Part shown: positions 2,784-18,260 of the stretch, piece after piece
Numbering within the stretch: the stretch's first letter is position 1
Layout: every line of letters begins with the position of its first letter
Source: Chloroflexota bacterium
Lineage (GTDB): Bacteria; Chloroflexota; Limnocylindria; Limnocylindrales; CSP1-4
DNA length: 38,930 bases
Direction: 5' to 3'
Assembly (NCBI GenBank): GCA_003171255.1
Contig: PMYK01000028.1
Span: forward strand, 11,328-50,257
Program-made: the position numbers and the translations under genes
The notes under the pieces: model-generated
The model's database searches: none
Seen by the model: only the letters and a program-made list of their open reading frames with translations
Told to the model about the DNA's origin: nothing

Positions 2784-3560
2784 TCAGGCGCCGATCGGCG
2801 ACTTGTCCCAGTCGATCGCCACTTCCTCGTTCTTGTTGGTTGGATCGACCGCGACCGCTAGCTTCACGCCCGGGGCCACCGCCGCGACCTTGGCGATCGG
2901 AACTCGATGGCCGAAGACCGCGGGGAACGGCGCCTCGCCGGCCAGGCTGACCTCGACGGTGAAGAGCCAGACGGGGTCGTTGAGGCGCGAAGGATCGGCT
3001 GCCGGATTCATGTCGCGGACTGTCTTGCCCATCGGCTGGGCGGTGGTGATGACCGCCGTGCCGTGAGTGCCCGTGGCCAGGATGTGATCGGCGCTGCCCT
3101 TGATCGTGGGTAGAGCGCCGCTCCGGACCGCCCCTAGCATGGCCGATACGTCGCCAGAATTGGGCTGCCCGCTGGCATCGAAGTTGAAGTCCATGCCGCC
3201 GGCCGCACCCGCCGCGGCGCCGGCCGTTCCCGCCGCGGCGCCGGCCGCGGGAGCGGAACTGCCGCCCATTCGGCTGAAGTCGAGCGAGACCTTCTGGGGG
3301 TCGGTCGGGTCGATCAGGACGCCGACGTGGGCGCCCGGCACGACCATCGGAATGAACAGCCGCGGGACTAGCGCCTTGGTCTGGACCTGGTACGGTGCGC
3401 CGCCCCCGTCCGGAGTGACCTGCAGGACGAACTTGTAGTCCGGCGCCTCGGGCCCCACGCCCGGCATCGAGATCGTTATGCCTGTGTCGGAGATGCTCTC
3501 GATGACCGCGTCGCCGCGCAGGCCGCCCTTTATGGGGCCGGTCGTGCCGCTCAGCTTCCG
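2784..3560 (-). repeat. Diverged direct repeat, copy in the longer gene
   Basis: The 3' part of the 584-residue gene and the 259-residue gene at 4649-5428 are paralogous DNA. Long identical blocks are visible, for example the stretch around 2945-2990 and its partner around 4803-4850. Boundaries are approximate and set by where the protein similarity starts (RKLSGTT). Confidence 0.85.
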
Positions 3561-4538
3561 CATGAGCCACGGGCCCCACAGGAACGGCGCCGAAATCGAG
3601 AAGAGCACGACCACGACGACGAAGATGATCACCGGGATGGCGTCGCTGGAAATGAGGGGCGGCTTCTGGACCGCGTCGATCGCCGCGAGAAGGCCGGCCT
3701 GGACGTCGCCGTTTGGAGCCGCCTCGGGCGACATGGTGTCGCTCGACCAGGGGGAGCTGGTCTCGTAGCTGTCCCAGAGGTCCGACGTCGAGTCGATGTA
3801 GCCGCCGATCTGCGTGCCCGAGACCCCCAGCGCGATGACGAGCGTCTTCTTGTCGAAGGCGTTCCTGATATCGGCGCCGTTGAAGAAGGCAATCGTGTCA
3901 GGCTCGCTGTCGCTGAGGGCCACGTCCACGTAGATGGTGCCGCCCAGCTGGCTGCCCAGGTTCGTGGCCGCGGTCTCGATGTGCTGCTTGGCGGCGTCGT
4001 CGAGGAGACCGGTGCCGTCGAAGACGTGGGTGCCGCCGACGAACGCGTCCACTCGGGCGAGCGTGCTCATGATCCAGCTCGCAGACGTGGCCATCCCCGG
4101 CGACGAGTTGTCGTTGATGAGGCTGGACTGCTGACTGTTGAGCCTGGTCTTGAGAGTGGCGCCGATCGCGAGCTGGCCGTCAGAGCCCTGGTCCGTAAGG
4201 AGCAGGCCGTCTACGCTCCAGGCCGCCGCGAGTGTGGCCTGGTCCGGCAGGCTGGCGGAATCAGGTCCCGTGTACAGCACGACCCGCCCGCCGCCGGCGG
4301 TCTCGATATGGGTTGCCAGAGTCTCGGCAGCGGTCGCGAGTTTCGGCGATAGCACGTTCCCGTAGTCATAGATATGGCGACCGGGGACGAAGGGCGACAT
4401 CGACGGGTCGGCGGCCGTTACGGGTCGGGCTCCGGCGAGGCCGATGAGCAGGAAGCCGAACAGACTCAGCGCGAAGGCCGCCACGATCGGCGAGACGTAG
4501 GCGCGCGGCTGCCGGCGGGACTGAGTCCAGTAGGGCAC
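2784..4538 (-). CDS. Membrane-anchored protein with two TPM-like domains plus a duplicated cytoplasmic module
   Basis: A 584-residue protein from a GTG start at 4538 with GGAGG six bases upstream; a longer open frame upstream is out of phase with the neighbouring gene. Residues about 15-36 are a signal anchor. Two regions follow that resemble TPM domains: about 50-150 (HIYDYGNVLSPKLATAAETL..GGGRVVLYTG) and about 170-290 (GLLDDAAKQHIETAATNL..GTIYVDVALS). A second membrane span lies near 325-346. The remainder is a cytoplasmic module, joined by an Ala/Gly-rich linker, that closely matches the whole protein encoded at 4649-5428. TPM proteins are linked in other organisms to membrane or photosystem protein quality control; the role here is not known. 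The gene follows its paralogue after 110 bases and is probably co-transcribed with it. Confidence 0.8.
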   Translation of the reverse strand: MPYWTQSRRQPRAYVSPIVAAFALSLFGFLLIGLAGARPVTAADPSMSPFVPGRHIYDYGNVLSPKLATAAETLATHIETAGGGRVVLYTGPDSASLPDQATLAAAWSVDGLLLTDQGSDGQLAIGATLKTRLNSQQSSLINDNSSPGMATSASWIMSTLARVDAFVGGTHVFDGTGLLDDAAKQHIETAATNLGSQLGGTIYVDVALSDSEPDTIAFFNGADIRNAFDKKTLVIALGVSGTQIGGYIDSTSDLWDSYETSSPWSSDTMSPEAAPNGDVQAGLLAAIDAVQKPPLISSDAIPVIIFVVVVVLFSISAPFLWGPWLMRKLSGTTGPIKGGLRGDAVIESISDTGITISMPGVGPEAPDYKFVLQVTPDGGGAPYQVQTKALVPRLFIPMVVPGAHVGVLIDPTDPQKVSLDFSRMGGSSAPAAGAAAGTAGAAAGAAGGMDFNFDASGQPNSGDVSAMLGAVRSGALPTIKGSADHILATGTHGTAVITTAQPMGKTVRDMNPAADPSRLNDPVWLFTVEVSLAGEAPFPAVFGHRVPIAKVAAVAPGVKLAVAVDPTNKNEEVAIDWDKSPIGA

Positions 4539-4648
4539 GGGATTCCTCCAGTTGCGGCGCCAGGTTCTCCGAGCGGCGGATCTACCGCTGCGGAGTCGGC
4601 CGCCAGGGATATCCCCAGCCGCCGCGACGTCCGGCTGCGCTCCGTTGG

Positions 4649-5425
4649 TCAGGCGATCGGCGAGGCGTCCCAGTCGATCGCGACTTCCTGGTTCTTGTTG
4701 GCTTCGTTGACCGCCACGGCGAGCTTCACGCCGGGGGCGACGGCCGCGAGCTTGGCGATCGGAACTCGATGGCCGAACACTGCCGGGAACGGCGCCTGGC
4801 CGGCCAGGCTGACCTCGACGGTGAAGAGCCAGACGGGGTCGTTGAGGCGCGACGGGTCGGCGGCGGGGTTGATGTCGCGGACCGTCTTGCCGAGCGGCAT
4901 GGCCGTGGTGATCACTGCCGTGCCGTGCGTGCCGGTCGCGAGTAGCTGATCGGCACTGCCCTTGATGGTGTTGACCTGGCCGCTGCGCACACCGGTCGCC
5001 ACGGCGGCGACTTCGCCCGCCGCGGGCTGGCCGTTCGCGTCGAAGTCCATGGCGAATCCGCCGGGGCCGGCCGGGGTCATGCTGACGCCCTGGGCCATGG
5101 GCGCCGCGCCCTGGCCGATGCGGCTGAAGTCGGGCGAAACCTTCATTGGGTCGGTCGGGTCGATCATGACGCCGATGGTCGCGCCGGGCAGGACCATCGG
5201 GATGTAGAGCCGCGGAATGGCTTCCTTGATCTCGACCGAGTAGGGCGCACCGGCGCCACCGATGGGCGTGACCTGTAGCTCCAGCTTGTAGACCGGTGCA
5301 TCGGGCCCAGCGGTCGGCGAAGTGATGGTCATGCCGGTGTCGGTGATGCTCGCGATCATCGCCGTACTCGGCACGCCGTTCTTCACCGGAGCAGTGGTGC
5401 CGCTCAACTTGCGGACCAAGAAGTC
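4649..5425 (-). repeat. Diverged direct repeat, copy forming the shorter gene
   Basis: Partner of the repeat at 2784-3560, in the same orientation, separated by the TPM-like part of the longer gene. The protein-level match runs from RKLSGTT to the IDWD-SPI end. Confidence 0.85.
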
Positions 5426-5428
5426 CAT
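4649..5428 (-). CDS. Soluble paralogue of the C-terminal module of the neighbouring TPM-like protein
   Basis: A 259-residue protein starting at the ATG at 5428, which has AGGAGGA just upstream; in-frame codons farther upstream lack a ribosome site. It begins MDFLVRKLSGTTAPVKNG and matches the C-terminal module of the next gene nearly end to end, without the signal anchor or TPM-like domains. It consists of two similar halves of about 90 residues. The first has GV(P)STAMIASI....YKLELQVT....PRLYIPMVLPGATIGVMIDPTDP. The second has GTAVITTA....WLFTVEVS....HRVPIAKLAAVAPGVKLAVAV. A Pro/Gly/Ala linker joins them. The repeated pattern suggests a small beta domain used twice. I do not recognise a named family or function. 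Confidence 0.8.
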   Translation of the reverse strand: MDFLVRKLSGTTAPVKNGVPSTAMIASITDTGMTITSPTAGPDAPVYKLELQVTPIGGAGAPYSVEIKEAIPRLYIPMVLPGATIGVMIDPTDPMKVSPDFSRIGQGAAPMAQGVSMTPAGPGGFAMDFDANGQPAAGEVAAVATGVRSGQVNTIKGSADQLLATGTHGTAVITTAMPLGKTVRDINPAADPSRLNDPVWLFTVEVSLAGQAPFPAVFGHRVPIAKLAAVAPGVKLAVAVNEANKNQEVAIDWDASPIA

Positions 5429-5623
5429 TTGAGTCCTCCTGCGCACGCCCCGCGAATCCTCGCTTGCTGCGAGGCTGGCGGCCTCGGCAACAATAGTGAC
5501 CGCGGCTCGAATGGGTAGCGAGTGGCACCAGCCGGTCCGGCAGTCGCAGAACACTGACGTTCGGGGCCCATTCGGAGTCCGGCCCTGGTCGCGAGTCTCC
5601 TCGACCACGTCCGAGCCGCTGGC

Positions 5624-9225: not shown

Positions 9226-11973
<2,748 letters not shown>

Positions 11974-12017: not shown

Positions 12018-13178
12018 TCAAGCCTTGTTGCGTGGGTTGGGTTGGACTATCTGGCGGAGGAATTCTTCGGCCGCCTTGCGCTGGCGGCCCTCCAGTTTGC
12101 CCGGCAACACGACCTTGATCCGGGCGAACATGTCGCCGGATCCTGCGCCTTTGAGACGGGGCATTCCCTTGCCCGTCAGCCGGAAGGTCTGGCCCTGCTG
12201 CGTGCCCGACGGGATGGTCAGCACTACGCGCCCCCCGAGGGTGTCGACATCGACCTCGCCGCCGAGCAACGCCTCTCCCAGGGTGATGGGCAGGTCGCGG
12301 GTCAGGTCCGCGCCGTTGCGAGTGAAGACGGCGTGTGGCCGGACCTTCGTGATCAGATAGAGATCGCCCGCGTCGGCGCCCGAGCCGGCCTTGCCGCTCA
12401 GGCGAATCTTGCTGCCGGTCTCCACGCCGGCCGGAAGCTTGACCTCGAGGCGACGATCGCCGACCTGGACGAGTCGGGCGGAGCCGCGGAATGCCTCTTC
12501 GAGGCTCAGGTCGACCTCAACCTCGACGTCGTCGCCATGACGGGTCCCGCGGCTGCGTGGCGTGGGTCCGCTGGTGCGAGTGCCGGTGCCACTCCCCGTC
12601 GGCGAGCCCGTGGCTGCGCCGTCCGTCCGGAGCCGCGAAAACAGATCGTCTAGAGGGTTGCCGGAGCGCCGGCCGCTCGTTCGGCCGCCCGTGCCGCCGC
12701 CGGTTCCGCTGCCCTTGCGGGTCGCCGTGGCAGTCTGCGTTGCGTCGCCCGCGGCCGCTCCACCGAAGAACGTGCGGAAGAAGTCGGAAAAGTCCTCCGA
12801 ACCCGCGCCGTTGAACTGGTATCGGACATTGCCCCCGCCCGGCGCCGCATACCCGGCGAAGGGCCCGCCGGCTCCGAACTGATCTCCGGCGTACGGGTTC
12901 CCGGCCGCACCCGCTCCGCCGGCCCCGCCGGCCCCGGCGCCTGCCCGCGAGAACTGGTCCCAGTTGGAACCGAGCATGTCGTATTGCTGGCGCTTCTTCG
13001 CGTCCGCCAGGACTTCGTGTGCCTCGTTGACCTCCTTGAACCTGCTCTCCGCCGTCTTGTTGCCGGGATTGCGGTCAGGATGAAGCTCGCGGGCCAGCCG
13101 CCGATACGCCTTCTTGATCTCCGCCGGAGTGGCCGCCCTCGGCACTCCCAGCGTCTGGTAGTAGTCCTTGTATTCCAT
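12018..13178 (-). CDS. dnaJ: DnaJ/CbpA-type co-chaperone without zinc finger
   Basis: A 386-residue J-domain protein that stimulates DnaK ATPase and delivers substrates. The J domain fills residues 1-70 with helix [21 protein letters not shown] including the essential HPD. A Gly/Ala-rich segment follows (about 75-130), then a Ser/Thr/Gly/Arg-rich linker and two beta-sandwich substrate domains (about 175-375; [47 protein letters not shown]). There are no CxxCxGxG zinc-finger repeats, so it is a class B (CbpA-like) protein. No dnaK or grpE lies in the window. The ATG at 13178 has only a weak ribosome site. It sits between the four small CxxC genes and clpB, all on the same strand. Confidence 0.93.
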
Positions 13179-13281: not shown

Positions 13282-13515
13282 TCAGACCGGCCACTGCTCT
13301 TCGTCGGCCTGGAGCTCGCTCGCCGCATGTACATGATCCGACCGCAGCTTGCGGCAGATCGCGCACTGCTCCATGTTCCCCTGAAGCACGTATTGCGGGC
13401 CGCCTGCTCCTCGGACGCCCACCGCCCGCGGGACGTCGAACGGAACGTTCATCCGCTCCAGGAATGCGTGCGGAGCCTCTGCTTCGACCGAACTTGTGTC
13501 GCCGTGCTGGTCCAT
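13282..13515 (-). CDS. Small CxxC protein, tandem paralogue 4 (last in transcription order)
   Basis: A 77-residue protein of an unrecognised family present as four tandem copies. Shared elements are a short acidic N-terminus, PHAFLERMNVPFDVPR (the PH-[FY]-x-ER-[MI]-N-x-P pattern), a variable glycine-rich middle, then CAICRKLRSDHVHAAS and a QWPV end. The Cys pair and the His of SDHVH have the same spacing as in the other copies. The His that precedes WP in the other three is Gln here, so this copy lacks one candidate metal ligand. It is closest to copy 1 (CAIC-RKLRSDH type). AGGGAG precedes the ATG. The function is unknown; operon position suggests a stress role. Confidence 0.8.
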   Translation of the reverse strand: MDQHGDTSSVEAEAPHAFLERMNVPFDVPRAVGVRGAGGPQYVLQGNMEQCAICRKLRSDHVHAASELQADEEQWPV

Positions 13516-13571
13516 CTCTCACTCCCTTGCGGGCTGCAGTCGTGCCGAGTCCTTGGAATCGCACTCAGTCG

Positions 13572-13814
13572 TCAGACGGGCCAGTGCTCGTTGTCTGCGG
13601 CTTGTTCGCTAGCAGCATGGATGGGATCCGACCGTCGCTTGCCGCAGAGTTCGCAGTCGTCGGGGACGCTTCCTTTTCGGAAGGGCATTTCGACAATTGT
13701 GCCGTCGCCGATGCCCGCCGACCTGGGGATGTTGTACGGGGCGTTGATCCTCTCCACGTACGAGTGTGGCGATTTCGGATCGACCGACTTGAGATCGTCG
13801 CCGTTCGAGTCCAT
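13572..13814 (-). CDS. Small CxxC protein, tandem paralogue 3
   Basis: An 80-residue member of the four-gene array. It reads DSNGDDLKSVDPKSPHSYVE, then RINAPYNIPRSAG, a variable middle with F-R-K-G, and DDCELCGKRRSDPIHAASE before EHWPV. Candidate zinc ligands are the CxxC cysteines, the His eight residues after the second Cys and the His ten residues later, plus a conserved His in the N-terminal PH. It is most like copy 2, with which it shares the C-E-L-C and K-R-R-S-D-P-I-H version. The ATG at 13814 follows GGGGAGGAG. It is separated from copy 4 by 56 bases and from copy 2 by 28, consistent with one transcript. No signal peptide or membrane segment is present. Confidence 0.82.
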   Translation of the reverse strand: MDSNGDDLKSVDPKSPHSYVERINAPYNIPRSAGIGDGTIVEMPFRKGSVPDDCELCGKRRSDPIHAASEQAADNEHWPV

Positions 13815-13842
13815 TTCTCCTCCCCTGCGACCCGATCCGACT

Positions 13843-14088
13843 CTAGAGAGGCCAGTGCTCGGGGTCGGCGGCCTCGTCGCTGGCGGTGTGTATCGGATCC
13901 GATCGTCGCTTGCTGCAGAGCTCGCAATCGTCCGGGACGCCGTCTCTCTTGAACGCGAACTCGGGTCCCATGGCCACGCCCGGCCCCATGCCTCCCCTGG
14001 GGATGTTGTACGGCAGATTCATCCTCTCCACGTACGCATGCGGCGCCTTTGGATCTACCGAGTTCAGATCGTCGTGGTGCTTGTCCAT
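13843..14088 (-). CDS. Small CxxC protein, tandem paralogue 2
   Basis: An 81-residue member of the array with SVDPKAPHAYVERMNLPYN, then IPRGG, a Met/Gly/Pro-rich middle and EFAFKRDGVPDDCELC followed by SKRRSDPIHTAS and a C-terminal EHWPL. The Cys and His spacing is identical to copies 1 and 3 (C-x2-C-x8-H-x10-H). The protein is predicted soluble, acidic at the N-terminus and basic around the Cys pair. The ATG at 14088 has GGAGGACC before it. As for its relatives, I can name no function. The conserved Cys/His pattern suggests a small zinc-binding or redox-sensitive protein. Confidence 0.82.
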   Translation of the reverse strand: MDKHHDDLNSVDPKAPHAYVERMNLPYNIPRGGMGPGVAMGPEFAFKRDGVPDDCELCSKRRSDPIHTASDEAADPEHWPL

Positions 14089-14135
14089 CTGGGTCCTCCG
14101 CTGATGTTCTGCGATCGCGACCGGCCGAGCGTTCG

Positions 14136-14381
14136 TCAGAGCGGCCAGTGTTCCGGGTCGGCGGCCTGCTCGCTGGCCTCATGAATGTGATCCGACCGCA
14201 GCTTGCGGCAGATCGCGCATTCCTCCGCGACAGTCTCTCTGCGGAACGCGAACTCCGGAGCGGCCGAGCCCATGACGCCGCCGACCGCCTTCGGAACCGC
14301 GAACGGGACGTTCATCCTCTCCACGAAACCGTGGGGCAGGTTCGGATCGACCGATCTGGCTTCTTCGTGCTGGTCAGACAT
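14136..14381 (-). CDS. Small CxxC protein, tandem paralogue 1 (first after lon)
   Basis: An 81-residue protein, the first of four paralogues. It shows SVDPNLPHGFVERMNVPF, then AVPKAVGG, a variable middle with EFAFRRETV, EECAICRKLRSDHIH and a PEHWPL end. It shares the C-A-I-C / R-K-L-R-S-D-H version with copy 4, whereas copies 2 and 3 form the other subtype. Strong AAGGAGGG precedes the ATG at 14381. It lies 85 bases after lon, with a hairpin in between. Four ordered copies with the motifs kept and the middle diverged are what one expects of genes under selection rather than open-frame noise. Confidence 0.83.
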   Translation of the reverse strand: MSDQHEEARSVDPNLPHGFVERMNVPFAVPKAVGGVMGSAAPEFAFRRETVAEECAICRKLRSDHIHEASEQAADPEHWPL

Positions 14382-14403
14382 CTGACCCTCCTTGCCATTG
14401 CAG

Positions 14404-14429
14404 GTCTCGTCGGCAGATGCCGGCGAGAC
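14404..14429 (-). terminator. Hairpin between lon and the small CxxC genes
   Basis: Two 12-base arms (14404-14415 and 14418-14429) pair with one mismatch or wobble and a two-base centre. No U-run follows in the transcript direction, so it is a weak or partial terminator, or an mRNA processing or stability element that could set the ratio of lon to the downstream genes. Confidence 0.4.
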
Positions 14430-14466
14430 TTACCCACTAGTGAGACTGGCGGACGGTCTCGGAGGT

Positions 14467-17082
14467 TCAGGACTCCATGGCCGCCAGAGATTCCATGATG
14501 TCCAGAGCCATAGCCGGCGGCTGATCGACCGGAAGCGGGAAGTGCCGCCGGACCGGTGCGTCCTCGGGCTCCGGCTCGGGCTCCTTGACGCCCTCGGTCG
14601 TCTTTGGCGGTTCCACCGGCAGCGGCATCGGCTTGCGCCGGAGGGCCGCATCGAGAACCTGGTCCATGTTGTCGACGAGAACGAGCTTGATCTGCTTGCG
14701 GATCTCCTCGGGAATGTCCCTCAGATCCTTCTCGTTCTTGTGTGGCAGGATCACCATCTTGGCGCCCGAAAGGTGCGCAGCCAGGATCTTGCTCTTCAGC
14801 CCTCCGATCGGCAGAACCCTGCCGCGGAGAGTGATTTCGCCGGTCATCGCTGCATCCTTGCGGACGGGGATGCCGGTGAAGGCGCTGATCATGGCCGTGG
14901 CCATCGTGATTCCCGCCGATGGGCCGTCCTTCGGAATGCCGCCGGCCGGCACGTGGATGTGCAGCGTGTTCTTCTCGAAGACTTCGCGCTTGATGCCGAG
15001 CAACGCGGCGTGGGCGCGGATCCACGACAGACCCGCACGAGCCGACTCGCGCATCACCTCGCCGAGCTGGCCGGTGAGGATGAAGTCTTCCTTGCCTTCC
15101 ATGAGCGTGACTTCGATGGCGATAACGTCGCCGCCGACCTCGGTCACGACCAGGCCGGTCGCGGCGCCGATCTGATCCTCGGACTCCAGCTCGCCGTATT
15201 CGAAGCGTTGCGGACCGAGGTACTCGACCAGCTTCTTGACGTCGACGACGGTCTTGCGCTTGCGGCCCTCGGCCACGGCGCGCGCCACCTTGCGCATGAC
15301 ATTGGCGATCTCACGCTCGAGATTGCGGACGCCGGCCTCGTGCGTGTAAGAGCGGACCAGCTCGACCATCGCCTCGTCCGTGATGGCGATCGTCTTCTCG
15401 GTCAGGCCGTGGTTCTTCATCTGCTTGGGGATGAGGAACCGCTTGCCGATCCCGATCTTCTCGGTCTCGGTGTAGCCCGGCAGGTGGATGATCTCCATGC
15501 GGTCGCGCAGCGGCGCCGGGATCGGGTCGAGCAGGTTCGCGGTCGTGATGAAGAGCACCTTCGTCAGGTCGAAGGGCACTTCGAGGTAGTTGTCCTGGAA
15601 GGTGTTGTTCTGCTCCGGATCGAGGACCTCGAGGAGCGCCGAACTTGGGTCGCCCCGGAAGTCCATGCCGATCTTGTCGACCTCGTCGAGCATGAAGACC
15701 GGGTTGTTCGAGCCCGCCGTCTTGACGTTCTGGATGATCCGGCCGGGCAGCGCGCCGATGTACGTGCGCCGGTGACCGCGGATCTCGGCCTCGTCGTGAA
15801 TGCCGCCCAGGCTCATGCGGACGAACTTGCGGCCCATGGCGCGGGCGATGCTCTTGCCGAGCGAGGTTTTGCCGACGCCGGGTGGTCCGACGAAGGCGAG
15901 GATGGGACTGCGCAGCGTCTCGGCCAGGCTTCGAACGGCCAGGTACTCGAGGATGCGGTCCTTGATCTTCTCCAGGCCGTAGTGGTCCTCGTCGAGGATT
16001 ATTGCCGCGGCCTTGATGTCCAGGTTGTCCGTGGTGGACACGTTCCACGGCAACGCGATCAGCCAGTCGACGTAGGTCCGAATGACGCCGACCTCGGGCG
16101 AGGCCGATGGGATCCGGCTCATCCGGTCGATCTCCTTGAGGGCGCGGGCCTTGACCTCCTCGGTCATGCCGGCAGCTTCGACCTTCTCGCGCAGCTCGTT
16201 GATCTCGGCCTGCTGCGGGTCATCCTCACCGAGCTCGCGCTGAATTGCCTTCAGCTGCTCGCGCAGGATGTACTCGCGCTGGGTCTTGTCCATCTCCGAC
16301 TTGACTTCGGACTGGATCTTGCCCTTGAGCTCGAGGATCTCGATCTGGCGACCCAGGAAGGTCGACACGATCTTGAGGCGCTCGACGACGTCGGTCGTTT
16401 CGAGGAGCTCCATGCGCTGTTCGGTCGACAGGTCCGGGCTGTAGGCGACCATGTCGGCCAGCAGACCCGGCTCGGTGATGTTGCGGGCCGCGACGGCCGC
16501 TTCCGGCGGAACCGGGGCGCCGTTGGCCACGTATTGCTCGATCTGGGCCTGGACCGACCGCATCAGGGCCTGGACCTCGATCCCCTCGGGCGTCAAGTCC
16601 GTGATCTCTTCGACCCTGACGATGATGTAGGGGCTGGTCTGGGTGAAGCCGACCACGCGCAGGCGGCTCTGGCCCTGAACGATCGCCCTGACGGTCCCGT
16701 CCTGAAGCTGGACGACCTGGGCGATCTTGGCCAGGGTGCCGACGCTGTACAGCTCGGAGGGATCCTCGATCTCCTCGCGCTCCGCCTGGCGCTGTGTCAC
16801 AAGGGCGATCGGGCCGCTCGAGGCGACCGCGGCATTCAGGGCGGCCACGCTCTTGTCGCGCCCGACCTGGAGCGGCACGATCATCTCGGGGAAGATGACC
16901 GTTTCGCGCAGGGCAACGAGCGGCAGCTCCCGGATGCCGGACACGTGGACGTGCGCGTCAGAGGAGGCTGACCCGGCAGCGGAGGCTGGAGCCTCGTCAG
17001 TGGAAGATGAGGCGTCGCCGTGAATTCGCTCTTCGTTCTTGACTTGCTGCTCGTCGTCCTTGTCGGCCGGCCGGTCAGTCAT
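14467..17082 (-). CDS. lon: Lon ATP-dependent protease
   Basis: An 871-residue LonA protease that degrades misfolded and some regulatory proteins in the cytosol. The N-terminal substrate domain starts at about residue 50 ([19 protein letters not shown]) after an acidic, Ser/Ala-rich extension. The AAA+ domain has Walker A GPPGVGKT at 399-406 and Walker [11 protein letters not shown]. The protease domain carries the catalytic Ser722 in PKDGPSAGI and Lys763 in [12 protein letters not shown] Pro/Glu-rich tail of about 60 residues follows. The ATG at 17082 overlaps the hspR stop by eight bases and has AGGAGA upstream, so lon is probably translationally coupled to hspR. HspR regulates lon in Streptomyces, which fits this arrangement. 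Confidence 0.97.
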
Positions 17083-17611
17083 TGGAATCTCCTGATCGAG
17101 TCGTGGTCACGCGAGTGGCCACTATACGTGTGATGGGTCGAGCGGCCGGTGTCGCCGATTGCTCAGCCCCCCCGGCGATCCGGCCGTTGTCCGAGCCGCC
17201 TTCGTAGCCACTCACTTCAGGAGAGGTTTCGGCGGCCCGGCTGATTGATGTCTCGGTGGATGTACCCGTCTGTGGCCCGCGTGCGGCGGCTGCCGCACCG
17301 GCCGCTCGGGCCTGAGCTTCGTCGAAGAGGGCCTCCAGGAGTCGGGTCCCGAGTCTCTCCTCGAGCTCGAACAGGAGGCGCACCCCCGCCAGATTGACAC
17401 CTCGCTCTTGAGTCAGGCGCCTGATCCACAGGATGCGCCGGATGTCGTTCTCTGAGTACAGGCGGATGTTTGTCGGCGTGCGGGCGGGTGCCAGCAGGCC
17501 CTCGTCCTCATATATCCGGAGTGTGCGCGGGTGGGCCTGAACAAGGCTGGCCGCCACGCTGATCACGAAACAGGGGCGCTCGGGGTCTTGCTGGAACTTC
17601 CGATCGGTCAT
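17075..17611 (-). CDS. hspR: HspR, MerR-family heat-shock repressor
   Basis: A 178-residue regulator. Residues about 10-80 are a MerR-type winged helix: CFVISVAASLVQAHPRTLRI, then YEDEGLLAPARTPTNIRLYS and DIRRILWIRRLTQERGVNLAG. This matches the HspR pattern (AxxxxxHPQTLRxYExxGL). A coiled-coil stretch LLFELEERLG follows, then an Ala/Ser/Thr-rich tail of about 80 residues, longer than usual. HspR binds HAIR inverted repeats, often with DnaK as co-repressor. An exact HAIR-like repeat lies upstream of hsp20 at 18240-18260, so autoregulation is expected. I take the ATG at 17611, seven bases after the hsp20 stop; the farther upstream in-frame extension overlaps hsp20 and looks like out-of-frame hsp20 sequence. 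Confidence 0.9.
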   Translation of the reverse strand: MTDRKFQQDPERPCFVISVAASLVQAHPRTLRIYEDEGLLAPARTPTNIRLYSENDIRRILWIRRLTQERGVNLAGVRLLFELEERLGTRLLEALFDEAQARAAGAAAAARGPQTGTSTETSISRAAETSPEVSGYEGGSDNGRIAGGAEQSATPAARPITRIVATRVTTTRSGDSND

Positions 17612-17618
17612 GGGCTGC

Positions 17619-18131
17619 CTACTTCGCGCCGACCACGGCTGGCTGCGCAGGCTGCCCGTCGCCGTCCGAGTGGCCCAGGCCACCGGACAGGCCCTGGCCG
17701 GTCGTGATCTTGATCTGCCGAGGCTTGACCTGCTCTGCCTTGGGGATGCGAAGGGTCAGGATGCCGTCCTCGAAGGTGGCCGCTGCCTTGTCCGGCTCGA
17801 TGCCGGCGGGCAGGGTCAGCGACCGGGTGAAGCGGCCACGGCGGATCTCCTGGAGGAGGAGGCCCTCTCGCGGCGGGATCATCGAGCTGGTGTCGCCGGC
17901 GATGGTCAGGGTGTTGCCCTCGATCGTGATGTCGACTTCCTCGGGCTTGACGCCCGGGAGGATCACCTCGACCACGACGTGGTCGTTGGAGGCGTAGACG
18001 TCGACCGGGACCAGCTGCCCCTCGCCAAACTGCCACGTACCTGGATTGCCAAAGCTCTCCTCGAAGAGCCTGTCCATCGCCTGGCGGAGCGAGAGCAGGT
18101 CGCCGAAGCCGCTGCGTCTGATGAATGTCAT
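17619..18131 (-). CDS. hsp20: Hsp20 small heat-shock protein
   Basis: A 170-residue alpha-crystallin-type holdase that keeps unfolding proteins soluble for refolding by DnaK/ClpB. The N-terminal arm has FGDLLSLRQAMDRLFEESF. The crystallin domain runs from about 42 to 140, with VPVDVYASNDHVVVEVILPG and VKPEEVDITIEGNTLTI, and closes with the family's G-I-L-T-L-R-I-P-K motif. A short tail rich in Gln/Gly/Ala follows. The ATG at 18131 has GGAGGTG upstream. It is the first gene after the HAIR operator/promoter and begins the run hsp20-hspR-lon. Confidence 0.95.
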   Translation of the reverse strand: MTFIRRSGFGDLLSLRQAMDRLFEESFGNPGTWQFGEGQLVPVDVYASNDHVVVEVILPGVKPEEVDITIEGNTLTIAGDTSSMIPPREGLLLQEIRRGRFTRSLTLPAGIEPDKAAATFEDGILTLRIPKAEQVKPRQIKITTGQGLSGGLGHSDGDGQPAQPAVVGAK

Positions 18132-18229: not shown

Positions 18230-18260
18230 ACCATAGAACCTTGACAATGGCATTGTCAAG
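18230..18260 (-). promoter_or_regulatory. HAIR-type HspR operator overlapping a sigma-70 promoter
   Basis: Bases 18240-18260 form a perfect 21-base palindrome with one central base: CTTGACA-N7-TGTCAAG. The known HspR site HAIR is CTTGAGT-N7-ACTCAAG, so the outer CTTGA/TCAAG and the 7-base spacing are kept. On the minus strand TTGACA within it (18254-18259) is a consensus -35 element. TATGGT (18230-18235) is a candidate -10 at 18-base spacing. A repressor bound here would cover the -35 and spacer. Transcription would start about 90 bases before hsp20. Confidence 0.85.

Follow-up and report, generated by a model that had tools for sequence, protein, structure and literature searches.

Tandem copies of a lineage-restricted family of putative zinc-knuckle proteins in the heat-shock gene run of a Chloroflexota genome

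What role can be assigned to four small related genes placed between lon and dnaJ in an uncultured member of the Chloroflexota? The window (the whole stretch of 38,930 nucleotides that was analysed) carries them as an array within a gene run in the order hsp20-hspR-lon-array-dnaJ-clpB (18131-9226), in which the neighbours of the array were named by Pfam (Table 1). The reading that best accounts for the data is that the array encodes zinc-knuckle accessory proteins controlled by HspR, made with the co-encoded protein quality-control machines and most likely docking by their tails on Lon; its probability is estimated at about 0.35.

The array genes are intact and lie head to tail, with spacers of 28-56 bp, and every start is preceded by a Shine-Dalgarno-like sequence (AGGAGGG, GGAGG, GGGAGGAGA and AGGGAG, read by eye). 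Coordinates and alignment thus confirm four tandem paralogues of 77-81 codons between lon and dnaJ, as reported in a preliminary description of this DNA, which was also right in placing them in a heat-shock gene run, although this run is longer than it stated. The four-copy alignment has 24 invariant columns, among them PH, ER-x-N-x-P, CxxC, RSD..H and WP; copies 1 and 4 carry CAIC/RKLRSDH and copies 2 and 3 CELC/KRRSDPIH, again as first described. Comparison of copy 1 with its own genome matched copies 2-4 far beyond chance (E 8e-27 to 6e-22).

Table 1. Coordinates in the window of the array genes, of the other genes of the run and of the putative operator.
Feature	Position	Strand	Remarks
hsp20, first gene of the run	17619..18131	-	Pfam
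HspR-like MerR-family regulator	17075..17611	-	Pfam MerR-type; start codon inferred
lon	14467..17082	-	Substrate-binding, AAA and Lon_C domains
Array copy 1	14136..14381	-	81 aa; putative ligands H17, C55, C58, H67; tail HWPL
Array copy 2	13843..14088	-	81 aa; putative ligands H17, C55, C58, H67; tail HWPL
Array copy 3	13572..13814	-	80 aa; putative ligands H17, C54, C57, H66; tail HWPV
Array copy 4	13282..13515	-	77 aa; putative ligands H16, C51, C54, H63; tail QWPV
dnaJ / CbpA-like J-protein	12018..13178	-	J domain and DnaJ_C
clpB	9226..11973	-	Pfam
21-bp perfect HAIR-like palindrome	18240..18260	.	CTTGACAATG-C-CATTGTCAAG on the minus strand

No credible family match was obtained in Pfam, NCBIfam (four window copies), PHROGs (four window copies and one short paralogue), PDB by sequence, PDB by profile or PDB by Foldseek, and the family was correctly called unrecognised. 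Five Pfam families each matched one or two of 37 members weakly (E 0.0036-0.15); none of these is a zinc-finger family, and IncD and Phage_gene29, which are among them, have scores below the cut-off. Four weak PDB profile matches (E 0.35-0.6) were to zinc-finger proteins. No publication on this protein family was found among open-licence papers. A mobile origin was also rejected, tblastn searches giving best E values of 1 (copy 2) and 9 (a relative from another genus) against phages and of 4 (short paralogue) against plasmids, and a scan of IMG/VR finding no relative.

The range of the family, for which the preliminary description had proposed a profile search, was examined using a 19-member profile, which matched (E at most 0.01) in 21 of 107 genomes of the taxonomic family and in 11 of the 21 genomes of the genus, with weaker relatives beyond the genus. 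Among 400 genomes drawn from the phylum, five matched, of which three belong to this genus and a fourth to its taxonomic family; the fifth (G424) has two stops in its frame (both TAG), which contains CxxC and DPIH without HxF. Four relatives with names belong to fen metagenome Chloroflexi. Looser relatives occur in other genera; in some of them C-x4-C (CxxPGCG) replaces CxxC, and G109:C117 is of this C-x4-C kind. Matches in which the full motif is absent were set aside (G005, G027, G042, G102, G279, G494:C87, G513 and G003:C121), and further profile matches were left out of the analysis (G048, G112, G127, G069:C278, G494:C103, G363 and G185). The family is lineage-restricted, with one to four copies inside the heat-shock operon of some soil Chloroflexota. 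A family unmatched in the libraries is thereby placed among the heat-shock genes of uncultured bacteria of this phylum.

The sole invariant residues over 37 aligned members are H17, C55, C58 and H67 (copy 2 numbering), a 37/37 conservation that is partly built in, since members were preselected by a filter on PHxF, CxxC and a following His, with L103 added by hand. When unfiltered genus members found by the profile and L190, found by reading, were added, His...CxxC-x8-His was kept by 39 of the 41 members from the genus; G007 encodes the two proteins that deviate, one with CxC (C77 contig) and one with C-x4-C (C154 contig). Outside the 37-member alignment are L106, L108, L112, L113, L115, L116, L190, L138, L052, L068 and one short G011 copy. 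Exactly two Cys occur in all 38 tabulated proteins and in 10/10 further ones. The distance from the His to CxxC varies from 11 to 40 residues in the 38 proteins, and that from the second Cys to the last His is 8 residues in every one; this spacing, variable before CxxC and fixed after it, indicates that the four residues form a core, interrupted by a loop in the middle. The HCCH set can be read as one putative zinc site, and the zinc-binding function suggested earlier is retained as the interpretation of this motif. The N-terminal His, described as invariant, is indeed conserved, but the second C-terminal His, thought to be lost in copy 4 only, is replaced by Q, N, R, K or D in the wider family.

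The classical C2H2 finger (C-x2-4-C-x12-H-x3-5-H) likewise combines two Cys, as CxxC, with two His. In the family, by contrast, the two His bracket the Cys pair, the first on its N-terminal side, and the classical pattern was found in none of the 38 proteins, all of which read H-x(11-40)-CxxC-x8-H. The run's J-protein gave no zinc-finger domain in a Pfam domain search, and so appears to be of type II, or CbpA-like. This had prompted the idea that the array proteins provide DnaJ with its zinc finger in trans, which was rejected because the DnaJ zinc-finger motif does not correspond to HCCH. Nucleic-acid binding is unlikely given a mean pI of 5.2 over 38 proteins, though one member has a pI of 10.2. 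AF2 models were poor (mean pLDDT 58 for copy 2 and 60 for the short paralogue): the ten-residue blocks with HxF and with CxxC..H reached 66-76, residues 32-45 and the final three residues of copy 2 were below 50, and Foldseek found no match with these models. Members are small, mostly acidic, largely disordered proteins.

Copy number at the lon-dnaJ site is variable. These two genes are linked within the fetched stretch in 19 of the 21 genus genomes, with an array in six (four copies in G000, the window genome, and in G011, three in G017, two in G003, one each in G002 and G009) and an empty site in 13. All six have the order lon-array-dnaJ, followed by clpB in five; the sixth stretch (G009) ends within dnaJ. 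The preliminary description had raised the possibility that the family always sits with lon, dnaJ and clpB, which does not hold, the site being empty in 13/19 genomes and 26 of 41 genus members lying elsewhere. Array-less lon-dnaJ gaps measure 73-368 bp, and no family remnant was found in them in the three forward frames. Counterparts in G011 are 94%, 93% and 90% identical to copies 1, 2 and 4, respectively, and the closest relative of copy 3 is in G017. The tree groups copy 1 with G011 and G002 (95/85) and copy 4 with G011 and G017 (97/87); copies 1 and 4 come together at just 84/73, and copies 2 and 3 have no resolved placement. The nested A-B-B-A order described earlier is therefore real, but the stepwise duplication read from it receives moderate support at most. 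The G011 counterparts and the tree grouping indicate that several copies are older than these species, and the array is not a recent private duplication. In a dnaJ tree, whose backbone is weak, the six array genomes do not form one clade (G003 groups with the array-less G020, 99/96), which implies that loss or exchange has happened. As a check for selection of the kind suggested with the preliminary description, dN/dS was computed by NG86 (YN00 gave no value for 6/11 pairs) and was below 1 in all 11 pairs (0.12-0.71), with 0.24, 0.32 and 0.12 for copies 1, 2 and 4 against their G011 orthologues.

A hairpin is also present between lon and dnaJ in all 13 array-less genomes (L080, L082-L085, L087-L092, L094 and L095), with energies of -17.6 to -31.6 kcal/mol computed without shuffle control, a GNRA loop in 12/13 and no T-run downstream. 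In 12 of these genomes (G007 was left out), 4/12 pairs show changes in both partners; 0/500 shuffles reached the covariation score, but 77/500 reached the count of such pairs. Weaker GCCGGC hairpins (-17 to -19) occur in the array genomes G000 (window 14382-14466), G011 and G003, and no hairpin of this kind in G002, G017 and G009. The lon-dnaJ hairpin may serve to divide the operon transcript or to make it more stable.

Control of the run was approached through its regulator and the region upstream of hsp20. In NCBIfam the regulator scored highest against two HspR models (93.6 and 86.6 bits; E 1e-26 and 8e-25), below the cut-off in both cases. Comparison of the regions upstream of hsp20 in G000, G002 and G003 revealed the palindrome, which is overlapped by a promoter-like site (TTGACA-18-TATGGT; 10/12 matches; 0/50 shuffles). 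The palindrome pattern occurs once in the window (0/100 shuffles) and, with as many as 3 mismatches allowed, is the sole such site in the 2.56-Mb genome. A scan of the 21 genus genomes allowing 2 mismatches located it in 19 (G010 and G014 giving no match), and the reversed-pattern control gave 0; 15 of the 19 have that site alone, and four have one additional site with 3 mismatches. Palindrome and dnaJ share a contig in 10/19, the genomes in which linkage to the run was checked in this way, and the other nine are presence counts alone. The known HAIR element is a 21-bp sequence, CTTGAGT-N7-ACTCAAG (PMC7464140, PMC9775585), and lon of Streptomyces lividans belongs to the HAIR/HspR regulon (PMC9775585). 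The window resembles this regulon in having a 21-bp inverted repeat with CTTGA/TCAAG as the outer five bases of each side and in joining an hspR-like gene, lon, dnaJ and clpB in one run; it differs in the inner bases of the palindrome and in the one site per genome of most palindrome genomes. With as many as 3 mismatches allowed, no standard HAIR was found in the window; CIRCE was not found in it either. Palindrome and promoter-like site support HspR-type control of the run as a prediction from sequence, and run and putative operator together favour the stress-protein interpretation of the preliminary description. The array lies about 3.9 kb from the palindrome, and internal promoters or mRNA processing are possible.

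Array proteins also differ from other members at their C-terminus. All 15 lon-dnaJ copies end in WP[LVI], against 1/25 genus members elsewhere, of which 23 terminate in WG or in WG plus one residue (L138, ending DPIHE, is left out of the count); Fisher's exact test gave 4e-10 on rows that are related by descent, so that the contrast is one between two clades and does not represent 15 independent events. In seven relatives from other genera Trp is absent from the C-terminal region (two carry Trp elsewhere), and three further ones have WP right after the last ligand His, where it is not terminal.

The mechanism proposed from these features is the following. On repressor release, the lon-dnaJ copies would be made together with Hsp20, Lon, DnaJ and ClpB, a co-induction deduced from the operator and the arrangement of the genes. 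One zinc would be held jointly by HxF, close to the N-terminus, and the C-terminal CxxC-x8-H knuckle, with the variable loop of 11-40 residues between them. The proteins would act as accessory factors of the Hsp20/Lon/DnaJ/ClpB machinery, perhaps in handling damaged proteins, the conserved hydrophobic WP[LVI] tail docking on a partner, most probably Lon, while the zinc knuckle or the variable loop would bind clients or tune activity, and the client may vary from copy to copy. Both the partner and the way the proteins act are hypothetical, whereas zinc binding and induction are drawn from motif and gene context. Lon is ranked first because the hydrophobic end recalls that of LarA and because its gene is adjacent; DnaJ or ClpB would fit too. 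LarA, a Lon activator of alpha-proteobacteria, is an 89-aa heat-shock protein that acts via five C-terminal residues after a predicted helix (PMC10665427). Shared features, according to the part of this source that was available, are a length below 90 aa, a heat-shock setting and a short conserved hydrophobic C-terminal tail. In the low-confidence copy 2 model a helix spans residues 65-73, and none is present in that of the short paralogue. LarA differs in ending in His, which the array tails do not, and belongs to another phylum, the likeness being drawn from descriptions and not from sequence; the word zinc is absent from the main text of PMC10665427 in the form available. HspQ and SmiA, known as Lon specificity factors in the sources as accessed, are similar as small Lon accessory proteins, by description only.

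Paralogues with the same core are found beside folE and elsewhere, so that the core function is not tied to Lon, and 13 of 19 genomes manage without the lon-dnaJ array. The window genome has three distant paralogues in tandem (E 2e-4 to 0.05 against copy 1), flanked by folE on one side and, on the other, by genes encoding a B12-binding mutase domain and MeaB. HCCH members occur between folE and the B12-domain gene in 6/20 genomes (four in G011, three in G000, two each in G002 and G009, one each in G019 and G017). A different small protein with four Cys (C-x2-CGEETAVGSVFxSDR...LCSEC type), two examples of which gave no Pfam match above cut-off, is encoded there in one to three copies (L175-L178, L180, L182, L183, L185, L188 and L189); 4/20 genomes hold neither family. 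Single HCCH members lie within about 3 kb of a CsbD-matching gene (G011), a ferritin/Dps-like gene (G017) and PRC-barrel protein genes (G011, G017). Stress-type neighbours recur, yet folE is no stress gene, and the common theme may be zinc.

Small, mostly acidic proteins that carry CxxC, are poorly ordered in models and are encoded in a chaperone gene run could also be redox-switched chaperones like Ruc and Hsp33, in which bound zinc would keep CxxC reduced and oxidation of CxxC to a disulfide would release zinc and expose disordered parts, unfolded proteins then being held for DnaJ and ClpB. PF09723, which we take to be the Ruc family, gave no match to the array proteins in Pfam, and these have two Cys each and no Cys4 ribbon; a PF09723-type zinc ribbon occurs separately in the same genomes, being present in all 21 of the genus, and may already fill such a role. 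Ruc (Rv0991c) is, like the array proteins, a small disordered protein with a metal site encoded near chaperone genes (here hsp20, lon, dnaJ and clpB) and is active when oxidised, but its zinc site, as that of Hsp33, is Cys4 and not HCCH (PMC7448276, in the part available). Redox sensitivity, the alternative named in the preliminary description, is considered unlikely, and less favoured than the zinc reading.

It is decidedly unlikely that the proteins are zinc buffers or carriers, binding zinc freed by stress and passing it to zinc enzymes, with copies that differ by client locus (the folE array serving GTP cyclohydrolase). To our knowledge the heat-shock run contains no recognised zinc enzyme, its DnaJ lacks a zinc-finger domain, and one site per protein would be a poor store. 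What speaks for carriers is the folE locus, where HCCH members (one to four) adjoin the gene in 6/20 genomes and the four-Cys protein replaces them in 10/20, both never occurring together, some FolE_I enzymes being zinc-dependent (PMC10882993, in the part available). Near-neutral, lineage-specific expansion of cheap small duplicates with little function, tandemly accumulated in expressed runs, would suit the patchy distribution (6/19 at lon-dnaJ, 11/21 genomes overall) and the variable copy number; it is very improbable in view of the dN/dS values, the Shine-Dalgarno-like sequences, the conservation of HCCH and the locus-specific tails.

The reading as tail-docking accessory proteins can be extended, though doubtfully, to a tail-coded family with one zinc core and locus-specific docking tails, where the WP[LVI] set would be heat-induced regulators of Lon (or of DnaJ or ClpB) with exchangeable client loops and the WG-tailed paralogues would serve other loci. 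If docking on such a partner is true, these proteins are a new, tandemly multiplied class of Lon (or DnaJ/ClpB) regulators, combining one putative zinc core with locus-specific tails; few dedicated Lon regulators (LarA, HspQ and SmiA) were found in the literature as far as accessible. Natural presence and absence, from 0 to 4 copies in related genomes, makes the role testable using purified proteins.

Two minor observations concern other gene neighbourhoods. One HCCH member recurs (L102, L104, L108, L113 and L115) beside response-regulator-like and glucan-type hydrolase-like proteins (named by eye), a protein with a weak DksA/TraR-finger match and a PRC-barrel protein. On the minus strand of the window, at 2784-5608, a segment of RKLSGTT...IDPTDP type is repeated in adjacent reading frames, which suggests tandem paralogues.
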